A stretch of 60,017 nt of DNA, from NCBI GenBank assembly GCA_021769425.1, contig JAETSX010000028.1:1-60017 (forward strand). Reading direction: 5' to 3'. Shown piece by piece: positions 2,518 to 52,680 of the stretch. The position numbers and the translations under genes were made by a program. The number at the start of each line of letters is the position of its first letter. Positions within the stretch are counted from its first letter, which is position 1. A model generated the notes under the pieces. The model worked only from the letters and a program-made list of their open reading frames with translations, did not search any database and had not been told where the DNA came from. The stretch is from Eubacterium sp. Lineage in GTDB: Bacteria > Bacillota > Clostridia > Lachnospirales > Lachnospiraceae.

Positions 2518-2608
2518 CAAATGTTACCTCCTTGAATTTTGCAATGTTACTCTGATATCCGGATGCCGTCCTGATTGTATGACAGCAACAGTCAGGCAAA
2601 CTGCCCTG

Positions 2609-2700
2609 TTACTATGAAAGTCTTCGACTTCCACAGCATGGATGGCCATGCGGCCCGTCGCACGACAGGCTGAGGATGATGAGACTTTACTATGAATTCA
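2609..2700. repeat. R1 repeat, locus A (one unit plus the start of a second)
   Basis: One 78-base unit starts with TTACTATGAAAGTCTTCGAC at 2609 and contains the core GGATGGCCATGCGGCC. TTACTATGAA restarts at 2687. The unit belongs to a dispersed family seen also at 33541, 42931 and 50233. Here it lies in the probable rplM leader, antisense to transcription. The CTGTTAC that opens it also opens loci C and D. Confidence 0.9.
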
Positions 2701-2953: not shown

Positions 2954-4636
2954 CTACTTTCCGACCCTGAACTGCTGTATCATGCCGCGCAGCGTTTCTG
3001 CCTGTGCCGTCATTTCCTCGCTGGAAGCCGCGCATGCCTCAGAGGTTCCCGTATTCGTCTGCACCACATGATTGATCTGTTCTACACCCTGATTGATCTG
3101 ATCCACTGCTTCTGCCTGTTCTCTGGAGGCTTCCGCAATCAGATTAATTTTATCAATAATGGTCCTGGCGCCTTTTACCACATCCTGCAGCTGACTTGCC
3201 GTCTCATTGGCAATTACCATTCCTTTCTCTACCGCACGGACAGATTCTTCAATCAGCGCTGTAGATTCCGTTGCCGCTTCCGCACTCTGGGAGGCCAGCA
3301 GAGATACCTGATCGGCAACCACTGCAAATCCTCTTCCGGCTTCTCCGGCCCGTGCAGCTTCTATGGAAGCGTTTAACGCCAGAAGGTTTGTCTGGGAAGC
3401 AATCTCATTAATCGCCGCAATAATCTTGCTGATTTCGCTGGAGGACTGGTTAATCTGGTTCATAGATTCCACCATCTCCTGCATCTTGCCGTTGCTGTAT
3501 TCCAGTTCCCGGCCCACCTGCTGCACTTCCCTGCTGATATCAGCCGCCTCTTTGGCATTTCGGTCAATCTGTCCGGAAACATTCTCAATCGTAGTGGAAA
3601 GCTCCTGGGTTACGCCTGCCTGCTCGGACGCTCCCTCTGCCAGTTCGGTGGAATTTGCAGCAATCTGCTCGGATGCTTTTGTCACCTGGTTTGCCACTGT
3701 CTGGATATTTTTCACCATATCTGACATATTTTTCTCAAAATGCATCAGTGATTCTTTAATTCCCACAAAATTGCCACGGTATTCCACGCCGGCCTGGACA
3801 TCAAAATTTCCTTCCGCAAACTCAGACATGGCATGATCGATATCTTCCACATAGGAACTTAAACTTGCGATCGAACTGCGCAGGGCATGGGCCAGTTTCC
3901 CGATTTCATCATCGCTGCGGTATGTAACATCAGTATGAAGATTGCCTCTGGACAGTTCCACAGCCGCTTCCTCAATCTCATTTAACGGCCCTAAAATGCT
4001 TTCCACAATCCGGTTTCCTACTTTTATGGATGTAAATATGGCAAGCCCCAGCGCAAGAAGCATCACAATAATTACAATGATTACCGTCTTCTGATTGATT
4101 TGCAGGGAAGATTTTTTCATTGCATCGGTTACATCGTTGATTTCTTTTGCAATTCCCACAGCTTCTTCCAGAGCCGGAGAACATTCTGTAACTATCAGGG
4201 TGATTCCTTCCGCCCGGTTCCCGGCTTCCAAATCCTCCACAATCCGGTATCCCAATTCCATCCAGTTCACCAGCGCAGTCTCATATTTCTTATCCAATTC
4301 ATTTTCTATCACGCCTGCAGCCTTCAAATCTGCCAGGGCGTTTTCTATGGAAGCCATGCTTTCCTCGATATTTCCCTTATATTCCGCCAGCATATCCTTA
4401 TCATCATTCAGCGCCAGCTCCCGAATCATCCTGGCTGCAATATTGCATTCAATCCGGCATGTCTTTACCGCAGTATCTGCAGCCTGAGCGCCCCTGATAT
4501 AAGAATTCATCTTACCCTGCACCAGAAACAGCCCTATCATGGCAAATATGGTAATTAAAATCATAAGCCCTACGACCAGGCCGTAGCCAAATTGCAGCTT
4601 CTCTTTCATTTTCATCCGATCCATTTTCTTTAACAT
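2954..4636 (-). CDS. Methyl-accepting chemotaxis protein
   Basis: This is a membrane chemoreceptor of 560 residues. A first membrane segment (GLVVGLMILITIFAMIGLFL) is followed by a four-helix extracytoplasmic region, a second segment near residue 190 (VIIVIIVMLLALGLAIF), a HAMP linker, and a long signalling coiled coil with the CheW/CheA-binding hairpin [20 protein letters not shown] and a glutamate-rich methylation helix at the end. The ATG at 4636 is chosen because the AGGAGG overlapping the last codons of truA serves it. A longer frame from 4669 would overlap truA. The ligand is unknown. The gene sits between truA and rplM, genes that are usually adjacent in Clostridia, so it looks inserted. 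Confidence 0.93.
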   Translation of the reverse strand: MLKKMDRMKMKEKLQFGYGLVVGLMILITIFAMIGLFLVQGKMNSYIRGAQAADTAVKTCRIECNIAARMIRELALNDDKDMLAEYKGNIEESMASIENALADLKAAGVIENELDKKYETALVNWMELGYRIVEDLEAGNRAEGITLIVTECSPALEEAVGIAKEINDVTDAMKKSSLQINQKTVIIVIIVMLLALGLAIFTSIKVGNRIVESILGPLNEIEEAAVELSRGNLHTDVTYRSDDEIGKLAHALRSSIASLSSYVEDIDHAMSEFAEGNFDVQAGVEYRGNFVGIKESLMHFEKNMSDMVKNIQTVANQVTKASEQIAANSTELAEGASEQAGVTQELSTTIENVSGQIDRNAKEAADISREVQQVGRELEYSNGKMQEMVESMNQINQSSSEISKIIAAINEIASQTNLLALNASIEAARAGEAGRGFAVVADQVSLLASQSAEAATESTALIEESVRAVEKGMVIANETASQLQDVVKGARTIIDKINLIAEASREQAEAVDQINQGVEQINHVVQTNTGTSEACAASSEEMTAQAETLRGMIQQFRVGK

Positions 4637-7956: not shown

Positions 7957-8125
7957 GTCATGCACCCTTCCAGCTCAACCGGTAAAGCTGTCCGATGTTT
8001 TGCGGTTGTGAACCTGCTTCTGTCACGCATCCTCCCAGTTCAGTCAGTGAAGCTGTCCGATGTTTTTGCAGTTGTGAACCTGCCTCTGTCACGCATCCTC
8101 CCAGCTCAGCCGGTGAAGCTGTCCC
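7957..8125. repeat. 65-bp tandem repeat derived from the trmL 3' end
   Basis: Units begin with GTCAYGCA at 7957, 8022 and 8088 (periods 65 and 66). The third, partial unit is the last dozen codons of trmL. The two outer units repeat this coding sequence downstream of the stop, each ending TGTGAACCTGC. The trmL stop codon region therefore appears three times. Confidence 0.88.
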
Positions 8126-33540: not shown

Positions 33541-33694
33541 TTACTAGAAAGTCTCCGGCTTCCATAGGAGGGTTGGCCATGCGGCCCGCCAAACGGCAGG
33601 CTGAGTATGATGGGAGTTTCCTATGAAAGTCTCCGGCTTCCATAGCAGGAATGGTCATGCGGCCTGCGTACGATAGGTTAAGCATGATGAAAGT
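33541..33694. repeat. R1 repeat, locus B (two units)
   Basis: Two 77-base units begin TTACTAGAAAGTCTCCGGCT at 33541 and TTCCTATGAAAGTCTCCGGC at 33618. A third start, TTACTA, follows at 33695. Both carry the core GGCCATGCGGCC or a one-base variant. They lie between the promoter and the start codon of the CoA-transferase gene. Confidence 0.92.
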
Positions 33695-35185: not shown

Positions 35186-35224
35186 ATATATTGCTGTGAT
35201 TCTTTCATGATCACAGCAATATAT
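35186..35224. terminator. Perfect 15-bp hairpin between convergent genes
   Basis: ATATATTGCTGTGAT (35186-35200) and ATCACAGCAATATAT (35210-35224) are exact complements with a 9-base loop. It lies between the 3' ends of the CoA-transferase and MATE genes. Only short T runs follow, so a bidirectional terminator is likely but not certain. Confidence 0.55.
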
Positions 35225-35326
35225 TGTTTACAAATTTCATGTTCCCACATCTCTTCTTCCTTACTCCCGCTTCTCAGACTCTGCCGGAATTTCAGGCAGT
35301 ATACCGAAAAACAGGATACCGCATCT

Positions 35327-42888: not shown

Positions 42889-42932
42889 AACAGCCAGCCA
42901 TTTCCGAATTCTGCGGACAATGGCCGGCTGTT
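42889..42932 (+). terminator. Hairpin after the TSCPD gene
   Basis: AACAGCCAGCCAT (42889-42901) pairs with ATGGCCGGCTGTT (42920-42932) with one mismatch. The closing CTGTT runs straight into the first R1 unit of locus C. No clear T run follows. Confidence 0.55.
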
Positions 42933-43082
42933 ACTGGGTAAGTCTTCAACTTCCATGGTAGGATGGCCATGCGGCCTGCCGGACGGAAGGCTGAGCAAAA
43001 TGGGGTACTAGGTAAGTCTCAGCCTTCCATAGCAGGATGGCCATGCGGCCTGCCGCACGATAGGTTAAGCATGATGGAGGTT
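42931..43082. repeat. R1 repeat, locus C (two units)
   Basis: Units start TTACTGGGTAAGTCTTCAAC at 42931 and TACTAGGTAAGTCTCAGCCT at about 43006, each 75-76 bases, with the intact core GGATGGCCATGCGGCC. A third start, TTACTATTA, follows at 43082. These units are the most diverged in the first hairpin, where changes on both sides keep it paired. Confidence 0.92.
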
Positions 43083-45582: not shown

Positions 45583-45862
45583 TACCAAAAAGCCGGACAT
45601 CCAAATCCCAATAGGGACCGGACATCCGGCGGTACCACCCTGATTAACAACCTCTCGTCATTCTCTCAACTGCCCTAACGCGGCTTCACGTCGTATTTTC
45701 GTACGCGGCTCCAAGGCGGGTTCCAGATATTCGTATGGGAAATCTCTCACCAGTGATTTCTTCTCTGTGCATCTTCCTGTCTGTACTGATCCTTTTCTTC
45801 GCCAGTTTACCATATATGATTCTGCCTTCAATTCTGCATTCAGGCATCCTTATGCTAAGGGC
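45583..45862 (-). promoter_or_regulatory. T-box riboswitch upstream of proS
   Basis: On the minus strand the leader contains the T-box core AGGGTGGTACCGCCGG. A terminator stem built from GCCGGA and TCCGGC follows, then TTTTT before the start codon. Upstream lies a long region able to form Stem I. Uncharged tRNA-Pro should stabilise the antiterminator and allow expression. I could not place the specifier codon with certainty. The 5' limit is approximate. Confidence 0.9.
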
Positions 45863-50232: not shown

Positions 50233-50466
50233 TTACTATGAAAGTCTTCGACTTTCACAGCATGGATGGCCATGCGGCCCGTCGCACGAAAGGCAGAGCA
50301 TGACGGGGGTTTACTATGAAAGTCTTCGACTTTCACAGCATGGATGGCCATGCGGCCTGTCGCACGACAAGCTAAGCATGATGGGGGTTTACTATGAAAG
50401 TCTTCGACTTCCAAAGCATGGATGGCCATGCAGCCCGCCAAACGGCAGGTTAAGCATAATGAGAGT
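50233..50466. repeat. R1 repeat, locus D (three units)
   Basis: Three units of exactly 78 bases start TTACTATGAAAGTCTTCGAC at 50233, 50311 and 50389. A fourth start, TTACTATG, follows at 50467. Because 78 is a multiple of three, both strands show repeated-peptide reading frames here. These are by-products, since the units at other loci are 75-77 bases. The remaining bases to 50713 contain no gene that I recognise. Confidence 0.95.
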
Positions 50467-50713
50467 TTACTATGTACATGAAAAATGCTTATCGTTAAGG
50501 ATGCATCTGACGTGAGGTCTGGCGGACCCCTTCGTGCAATGACGCAAACAGCATGCGCTTAGCGTATGAGTATTAATGAATTGGCGCAGAATATTTTTCT
50601 GAAAGCGGTGTTTCACAAACGCAGGCGCAGCGGCGGCTACGCTGAGGCTAGAAAAGCAGCAATCTCAGAAAAATAGACAAGCAAAACGTAAAGATACTTA
50701 GCGCGGGGGGATC

Positions 50714-51719: not shown

Positions 51720-52208
51720 TTATTTTGTAAATAATTGCGGCAAATTATTCTGTTGGCTGAAATTATGTACGGATAGTCTGACGCAATGTATGACAGTCAT
51801 TGAAAGGAATGGAATCCTTTTTATTATCAAAGAATTGGATGCTAAACTGATTAACCGATCGAGAAATCGGAAGTTGGGAGAAAAATATAAGAACCGCTCC
51901 TCAAATATTGGAATAAGCGCCTGCGCTACCGCCTGTTGCACAAAGCGGTCTGTTACCGTTGGCACTCCGAGGTTTCTTGTTCCGCCATCCGGCTTTGGTA
52001 TCTCTACCCGTCTGACCGGCTGCGGCTTATATTTTCTCGTCTGCAGCTGTTCCCTGATGTTTTCGCCGTTTTCCGAAAGATATACGCCAAGTTCTTCGAC
52101 AGTCATTCCGTCTACCCCTGCCGCTCCTTTGTTCCTAACGACTTGCAGATACGCCGTATTGAGATTATCTTTGCTTAATATCTGCTCCATGAGACTACTT
52201 GTGTCCAT
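51720..52208 (-). pseudogene. Truncated group II intron reverse transcriptase
   Basis: The first 106 residues are the N-terminal part of an LtrA-type intron protein (VVRNKGAAGVDGMTVEELGV, YKPQPVRRVEIPKPDGGTRN, VQQAVAQALIPIFEERF). After that, at about 51890, similarity ends. The YADD active site, maturase and endonuclease regions are missing. The frame continues into unrelated AT-rich DNA. The intron RNA 5' part lies directly upstream, so the 3' half of the intron has been lost. The protein is not functional. Confidence 0.88.
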
Positions 52209-52680
52209 GCGTTGTTTCCTTTCTGCCCCTTTTGCCCTTGCCGCCTTTGACGTTATCGACAGACGTTGCTCCGGCTACGAAGTGGAACGTACTTCAACTG
52301 ATTGATTGTTCAGCCCTTCACTCCATCCCCATTACAGGAACTTCCTCGCTACTATGGCTTCTGCTGACTTCTCACCGTTCGTTGTTACTCGGCTAATGGA
52401 ACCGCTGTGAGACCTCCCCAGTTAAGGTGTGAACTCTTTCCCTCCATGCACCTGCCGCATCTACTGGTACTTCCAGCAACTTTTGGACTTCATCTTCTTT
52501 TGCAGACTTATCCGTATTTCCCAGCCTTATATGCGGTTTCTGTTCGTCAGGTCAGAGGTTTGCCTACAGCTTCTTTCAGATTCCACCTCACGATGGACAC
52601 CCTTGCTGTTCAGCTATGTGCTTCGTCGTTGCCTACGCGCACTCGGGACTTTCACCCGTTAGAGTTCGCCCATGCTGGGC
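52209..52680 (-). other. 5' part of a group II intron RNA
   Basis: The 470 bases before the reverse transcriptase start have no protein gene. On the minus strand they contain ACGGGTGAAAGTCCCGAGTG, TGTCCATCGTGAGGTGGAAT and similar pieces that I associate with domain I of bacterial group II introns. Domains V and VI, which normally follow the reverse transcriptase gene, are absent. The exact 5' splice border is not determined. It may lie near the GTTCGCCC/GGGCGAAC stem. Confidence 0.6.

Follow-up and report, generated by a model that had tools for sequence, protein, structure and literature searches.

Relation to described repeat systems

Short palindromic repeats are common in bacteria, and the spread of many of them is unexplained once a RAYT is absent. 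In the part of PMC3733652 drawn on here, REPs are described as repeats of 20-40 bp and CGTC REPs as lacking a dedicated transposase, and the corresponding part of PMC2817692 links RAYTs both with PF01797 and with inverted REPs that flank them. The repeat described below, found in a window of 60,017 nt of Eubacterium sp. DNA (the window being the whole stretch analysed), resembles REPs and BIMEs, as portrayed in those parts of the two sources, in being high-copy, intergenic, palindromic and non-coding, in forming clusters and in having covarying stems. Against the 20-40 bp of REPs, however, it measures 78 nt and has two conserved hairpins, its clusters consist of abutting head-to-tail units, and no RAYT tracks it. 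The consensus of its minus strand carries GTAA at both ends; REP tags are GTAG or CGTC. Firmicutes, Clostridi-, Eubacterium, Lachnospir- and Roseburia are never named in PMC3733652, according to a word search.

Like MITEs, as outlined in the part of PMC10969869 used, the repeat is small, non-autonomous, mostly intergenic and mobile, but it has no terminal inverted repeats, its inverted repeat being internal at the left end, and its right-flank match is one-sided and graded. The Enterobacterial repeat units, for which part of PMC2759123 serves as the source, are also small, mobile and intergenic, and open frames have been noted in them; they differ in size, sequence and hosts, and the frame of our repeat is lost in about one-third of the units. 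With IS200/IS605 elements, judged from part of PMC6006769, it shares a hairpin near the end, insertion beside a tetranucleotide and strand asymmetry, but most carriers tested have no TnpA, there is homology in the right flank, and a left/right pair of hairpins is missing.

By eye, the two termini of the consensus, TTACTATGAAAG at the start and GATGGGAGT at the end, are not reverse complements of each other. A known Rfam family was considered and rejected: nothing was found at the gathering score, and one of two sub-threshold matches (E up to 10, far below the cut-offs) overlaps the element. The core string was not found in the literature, nor was any known repeat recognised as the same, at the level of titles and the openings of abstracts.

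Eukaryotic SINEs consist of a short structured unit without genes, show primer-like homology at one junction and suffer more losses at the 5′ end. The repeat is likewise short, structured and gene-free, with a primer-like match at one junction and more 5′ losses, but it has no linked reverse transcriptase and no tail, its 5′ end is sharp, its host is bacterial, and an RNA intermediate is hypothetical; if the latter were true, the repeat would be a bacterial counterpart of SINEs. Its apparent self-targeting insertion rule is unusual. Because its junctions can be read, empty sites are at hand and one junction bears a graded, primer-like match, the choice between ‘copied by priming’ and ‘recombined in’ becomes testable.

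Repeat units of the window

A first-pass annotation of the window had listed eight units at four loci (A to D), all on the plus strand, and each of them was located where it had been placed (Table 1). Read in the direction of that annotation, a unit is laid out as TTACTATGAAAGTC-TTC-GACTTCCATAGTAN-GGATGGCCATGCGGCCYGYCNNACGRCAGGCTGAGCATGATGGGAGT, and the moving unit starts with TTACTATGAAAG and ends with GGGAGT. The core GGATGGCCATGCGGCC, which had been described as shared, is indeed recognisable in all eight units, yet it is exact in only five, two having one mismatch and one having two. With up to three mismatches, the window contains 8 matches to this core against a mean of 0.53 in shuffled sequences, none of 100 shuffles reaching 8. 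The second string presented as common, TTACTATGAAAGTC, has exact copies at loci A and D but not at locus B, where TTACTAGAAAGTC and TTCCTATGAAAGTC are found in its place, nor at locus C, which has TTACTGGGTAAGTC and TACTAGGTAAGTC.

Table 1. Coordinates of the repeat units and of adjoining sequences in the window
Feature	Position	Strand	Remarks
Unit A1, 78 nt, single copy	2609..2686	+	92.4 bits, E 2.6e-19; empty site in G023, G015
Right flank of A1, TTACTATGAAT, target-like, resembles element start	2687..2697	+	TATGAATTC native in G023, G015
26 nt upstream of A1	2583..2608 (approximate)	+	absent from empty site in both sisters
Unit B1, 77 nt	33541..33617	+	77.9 bits
Unit B2, 77 nt; target-like TTACTATTT from 33695	33618..33694	+	units absent in G023, G021
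Unit C1, 74 nt	42931..43004	+	
Unit C2, 77 nt; target-like TTACTATTA from 43082	43005..43081	+	77.3 bits
Unit D1, 78 nt	50233..50310	+	
Unit D2, 78 nt	50311..50388	+	96.1 bits
Unit D3, 78 nt, GCC-AAAC-GGC variant of hairpin 3; target-like TTACTATG from 50467	50389..50466	+	

Across genomes, 309 units in 186 distinct arrays were collected, after removal of nhmmer matches below 35 bits and of arrays with duplicate flanks. Single units make up 106 of the 186 arrays, 51 are double and 29 longer, with a maximum of six units. Contig breaks often fall within arrays. Length is 78 nt in 164 of 263 units and 77 nt in 82. Units abut without any spacer, as had been seen in the window, and a CRISPR is thereby rejected.

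Distribution and copy number

With up to two mismatches, the core has 188 matches in the whole host genome, against 3 for a reversed-pattern control. The constant orientation noted earlier holds within the window but not genome-wide, where 79 cores are forward and 109 reverse. Among 29 members of the genus, with one mismatch at most, bursts of 56 to 174 copies (window genome, 174; G021, 58; G023, 56) adjoin near-zero congeners: of the remaining 26, 12 have one to five core matches and 14 have none. High copy number was also noted in G061-G064. Single core matches can be due to chance, the control pattern matching once in 5 of 61 genomes; the loci inspected in the low-copy genomes G015, G014, G025, G003, G010 and G027 hold recognisable units. 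Further carriers are uncultured Lachnospiraceae MAGs, chiefly CANPTH and CANRZW, with several copies each among the matches listed, and a wider scan of contigs gave at least 84 stretches, several of which are chance matches in unrelated bacteria. Two named carriers have isolate genomes, Petralouisia muris NM01_1-7b and Eubacterium sp. 14-2. There was no match to the repeat in plasmid and phage collections; viral contigs gave one, with flanks identical to a locus of Eubacterium sp. 14-2.

A covariance-model search of related Lachnospiraceae had been suggested and was run, with strict filters, on 397 genomes from 334 genera of the family, a set that includes just two members of the genus. Outside the window genome, it retrieved just two single relics, in G359 and G254; a gapped pattern applied to the family genomes found the window genome and G359. 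The G359 relic keeps the architecture but has a different hairpin 3. Patchy copy number, together with sites that are empty in sister genomes (see below), therefore indicates a mobile intergenic repeat. The repeat is real; it is mobile, of the REP/MITE kind and genus-level in its distribution, and it has burst in a few genomes.

The genus seems to be rich in small repeats. A second dispersed family, with ends TTACTCCGGCGGTTA...TAACCGCCGGAGTAA, was encountered in G000 (L034, the L127 site in L011, and L264 at about 3190-3420); one copy occupies the position at which G023 carries the hairpin repeat, and another is joined to a truncated unit of that repeat. More dispersed families, with many copies in G023 and G015, correspond to positions 1699-1822 and 1818-1913 of the L264 query.

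Covariation and folding strand

The first-pass annotation had proposed that paired changes occur in two hairpins. We examined this in the larger alignment that it had called for, namely 66 non-redundant units retained from 199 candidates after the removal of near-identical units and of those in which the start or the end could not be recognised. For hairpin 1 the proposal is borne out: 11 of its 14 pairs are changed on both sides, although such counts are inflated by relatedness, since the window genome contributes 32 of the 66 rows. For the other hairpin (hairpin 3 here, hairpin 2 of the earlier numbering) it was overstated, with a single double-change pair of eight (CG 34, UA 16). Examples from hairpin 1 are columns 15-21 (UA 22, CG 20) and columns 5-31 (AU, GC, CG and UA), the variants at both being scattered over several genomes. 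When hairpins 1 and 3 were taken jointly, none of 500 shuffles attained any of the five observed measures. Slid alignments scored lower on cells paired, double-change cells, further pair types and covariation score; on the number of pairs with a double change, a slide of -1 gave 14, against 12 in the structure itself. The described change from GTC-GCAC-GAC to GCC-AAAC-GGC is present, in units B1 and D3, and amounts to one pair changed on both sides. No such compensation was seen by eye for the GG/CC change said to occur at locus C, where one kept G-C pair lies beside mismatches and wobbles. A competing GCATGG..CCATGC hairpin was rejected, its covariation not exceeding chance, and a minus-strand helix closing hairpin 3 found little support.

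The strand that folds better is the minus strand, i.e. the complement of the one considered earlier: among 245 distinct units, this was so for 214 under RNA parameters and for 209 under DNA parameters, against 44 of 245 when the units were shuffled. For three units, the z-scores were -3.3, -5.4 and -3.3 on the minus strand and -1.8, -1.8 and -1.4 on the plus strand; unit D2, as an illustration, reaches -32.6 kcal/mol (z -5.4) on the minus strand and -24.1 kcal/mol (z -1.8) on the plus strand. Mismatched cells of hairpin 1 point in the same direction, 97 being A.C on the plus strand (thus G.U or G.T on the minus strand) against 27 of the converse type. Those of hairpin 3 are mixed (60 A.C and 86 G.T, with 55 of the G.T cells falling at a single doubtful outer pair), and its wobbles on either strand run counter to the minus-strand reading. 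The relic L302 in G359 is opposite to the main trend, its plus strand folding better. The hairpin 1 fold first noticed is thus correct, but on the less stable strand.

A further observation concerns the left end. In three of 136 array-leading units, hairpin 1 is continued into the left flank, by 10, 9 and 6 bases, and these extended left arms (L072, L094 and L180) are an inverted copy of the core GGATGGCC. Shorter extensions were seen at L258 (4 bases) and L095 (3 bases), and a longer but imperfect one at L091. By our arithmetic, with one quarter per base, about 0.03 to 0.1 units would have an extension of at least 6 bases by chance; a shuffled control is uninformative here because the core with which the arm pairs is constant. 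In 96 later units the stem score was 13 at most, and the best 15 stems all stay within the unit. The extended arms are most naturally read as the product of a free 3′ end on the minus strand, which turned back on itself at the left edge and was then elongated. Fold-back copying can thus create paired changes in the basal part of hairpin 1 without any selection. The paired changes from which a selected fold, in RNA or extruded DNA, had been deduced do hold for hairpin 1, but selection is not their direct consequence, because the opposite strand folds better and fold-back copying can produce them.

Insertion edges, empty sites and growth of arrays

The two edges of the arrays are of different kinds. 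On the left, 160 arrays show no consensus from positions -20 to -2 and a weak T (51%) at -1, and then a sharp edge at TTAC, with TTACTATGAAAG conserved at 81-98% per position. The motif CTGTTAC does stand before loci A, C and D, as had been reported, but the preceding stem that it was said to close is not a general part of the element, given the absence of a consensus in this flank. On the right, the flank resembles the element start TTACTATGAAA, and the match fades over 11 bases: in 169 clean arrays (4 of 173 having been removed because a decayed unit lay behind them), agreement at positions 1-7 is 92, 93, 87, 76, 88, 64 and 78%, and at positions 8-12 it is 50, 61, 64, 58 and 27%. Seven to ten of 12 bases were matched at 139 of the 169 right ends, whereas 3-6 were matched at 153 of 174 control positions located 150 nt downstream. 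With an edge that is sharp on the left and a match that is graded on the right, the left copy is element-like and the right copy target-like; priming would be expected to leave a right-hand match that weakens with distance from the junction. Ends are also lost unequally, in 20 of 177 cases at the 5′ end and in 6 of 177 at the 3′ end, under thresholds that are not strictly alike.

Comparison with sister genomes provides empty sites, the clean cases being few and identity between the genomes at one gene reaching about 92% at most. At L115, an exact gain of 78 nt lies ahead of a TTACTATAATAAC that is native in G015. At locus A of the window, the sequence natively carried by both sisters is TATGAATTC. 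L128 has three units ahead of TTATTATTTTTTTC, and G000 has no unit there. At L264, one old unit in G015 corresponds to several in G000, i.e. to insertion beside an older unit. Locus A has a peculiarity, the 26 extra nt on the left of its unit, for which a search of its own genome gave no second copy. Directly to the right of locus D, about 240 bases (window 50475-50710) are also missing in G023 and G015, which seems to reflect a second, unrelated insertion beside the array.

Within arrays of G000, the mean difference between adjacent units is 7.5 edits, against 12.6 for random pairs. The 76 adjacent pairs include 33 that differ by 0-4 edits, to which plain tandem duplication contributes, and 28 with 9-24 edits between them, a distance that independent insertions would lead one to expect. 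Arrays grow by both local duplication and independent insertion. Simple tandem duplication, which the first-pass annotation had put forward as the alternative that would undo its proposal, is thus insufficient: the family is dispersed by insertion, with local duplication in addition.

Neighbouring genes and the search for a driver

No driving enzyme, whether polymerase or nuclease, was found in the genomes and neighbour ORFs examined. Clustering of 755 distinct ORFs beside arrays revealed no transposase family as a recurrent neighbour in the best 25 clusters, which comprise transporters, regulators and array-derived frames. A Pfam scan of 150 of the 329 neighbour ORFs gave, in the best 25 of 171 families, two tyrosine recombinases and no other mobility family; both match integron integrase models far below cut-off. 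PF01797, compared in 14 genomes and seven more, shows no link with copy number of the repeat: it is present in one of the seven further carriers, and the five matches in the host genome are IS200-like genes without an adjoining core, save one chance-like match with 4 mismatches. A gene-bearing relative of the repeat was sought in the loci inspected, in the 150 of 329 neighbour ORFs scanned and among the matches listed, and none was found. Likewise, no pair of half-elements bounding a gene occurs among the matches listed (nhmmer and the right-end pattern, at least 100 places), which include isolated partial copies.

Two insertions of the repeat, in G000:C24 (L027) and G023:C7 (L121), are independent and lie on different sides of the same gene, presumably a D-aminoacyl-tRNA-deacylase-like one, which adjoins a gene for an XerS-like recombinase. 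At L023, L043, L090, L114, L121 and L122, the last TTACTATG of the array gives an ORF its ATG, and a purine-rich GGGAG or GAGGG lies a few bases ahead of it; the repeat may thus act as a ribosome site there. At L003, L072, L082, L093 and other loci, the minus strand of the array is open in one frame and would encode a repeated peptide, e.g. SCLACRATGRMAIHTMEVGDFHSK; such frames are likely annotated as hypothetical proteins.

How the repeat may spread

We tentatively favour, at somewhat less than even chance, a non-autonomous mobile intergenic element that inserts in a copy-and-return manner, by target-primed copying of one unit. The minus-strand 3′ end of the target, ..TTTCATAGTAA-3′, would anneal to a plus-strand template, either RNA or exposed single-stranded DNA, at the right end of a unit contained in it. 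One unit would be copied, and the new 3′ end, which again reads ..TTTCATAGTAA, would return to the target and be sealed, the expected outcome being one exact unit added ahead of the target and bounded by TTACTATGAAA on either side. The left end of a unit would itself be a perfect target, which could account for head-to-tail arrays. A nascent minus strand with hairpin 1 at its 3′ end might also snap back and copy the internal arm, which could produce the left-arm extensions and some of the paired changes. Such copying would explain why units have an exact length, why the right-hand match decays, why arrays and fold-back cases occur and why 5′ ends are lost more often than 3′ ends; the 26 nt at locus A are left unexplained and count against it. 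A more specific scheme, which we consider rather unlikely, is a bacterial SINE-like retroelement, in which a structured 78-nt array RNA is copied at nicks by a reverse transcriptase acting in trans. The target 3′ end would be the primer, its match to the RNA end (TTACTATGAAA) would set the site, and the cDNA, which would be the folding strand, would snap back and template its own left arm.

The right-hand homology could alternatively originate as the overlap of a recombinase. An Xer-like or integron-like tyrosine recombinase could insert a circular unit with the folded minus strand as substrate and TTACTAT as overlap, and the better folding of the minus strand is reminiscent of integron attC sites. 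Tyrosine recombinases are present in all seven high-copy genomes searched, a gene for an XerS-like protein (354 aa as translated; 206.9 bits for a cut-off of 267) lies near an array in G000, with one of orthologue size also near an array in G023, and a 193-aa recombinase adjoins the array at L095. Yet the family also occurs in all 14 control genomes, its two members among 150 neighbour ORFs are close to chance (our estimate being 1.3), neither flank has a second arm, and the right-hand match fades over its 11 bases instead of stopping after an overlap; we regard this reading as unlikely. Movement of single-stranded DNA by a Y1 (HUH) transposase cutting at TTAC, as for a REP/RAYT-type or IS200/IS605-type element, appears quite improbable. 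It would fit the subterminal hairpin, insertion beside a tetranucleotide, the lack of a long target duplication and the five PF01797 matches of the host, but PF01797 is absent from G023 in spite of its 56 copies, reduced to a sub-cut-off fragment in G021 (58 copies), missing in six of the seven further carrier genomes and matched in five of seven zero-copy genus members tested. Moreover, homology in the right flank is not part of the mechanism in the portion of PMC6006769 that describes it.

Retention for a function, either as a small structured RNA or through a peptide of 19 residues, MKVFDFHSMDGHAARRTTG, that would have a ribosome site of its own ahead of the next start, is very improbable in our estimation. 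Hairpin 1 does covary; of 231 units with the start ATG, 143 read a 19-codon frame and 22 a 21-codon frame; and ORFs of 152-327 aa start at the terminal ATG of the six arrays named above. But the frame is lost in the 82 of 263 units that are 77 nt long, about a third, and the codon-position bias is slight (0.35, 0.44 and 0.51 bits), so that peptide coding is weak and was rejected. No Rfam family matches at the gathering score, 14 of the 29 genus members have no core match at all, and flanking genes show no clear preference of orientation (26 ++, 25 --, 15 -+ and 13 +- of 116 arrays, a neighbour set that, like the 169 leading units, still contains some core-only chance matches). We give almost no credence to an ordinary minisatellite, evolving by tandem duplication and gene conversion without mobility: the closeness of adjacent units would suit it, but the repeat occupies many loci on both strands, more than half of its arrays are single units, and single-unit insertions at sites empty in sisters contradict it.

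Other features of the window

The window also contains a decayed group II intron on the minus strand (51720-52597), with Rfam matches to D1-D4; its maturase, the sole one in the window, stops after about 114 residues of the model match. A T-box leader is located on the minus strand at 45610-45808, and an unrelated 66-bp tandem repeat, in 2.6 copies, at 7957-8124. Finally, an intergenic inverted repeat at 35186-35262 has weak relatives at many places in G015, G023, G021 and G000.
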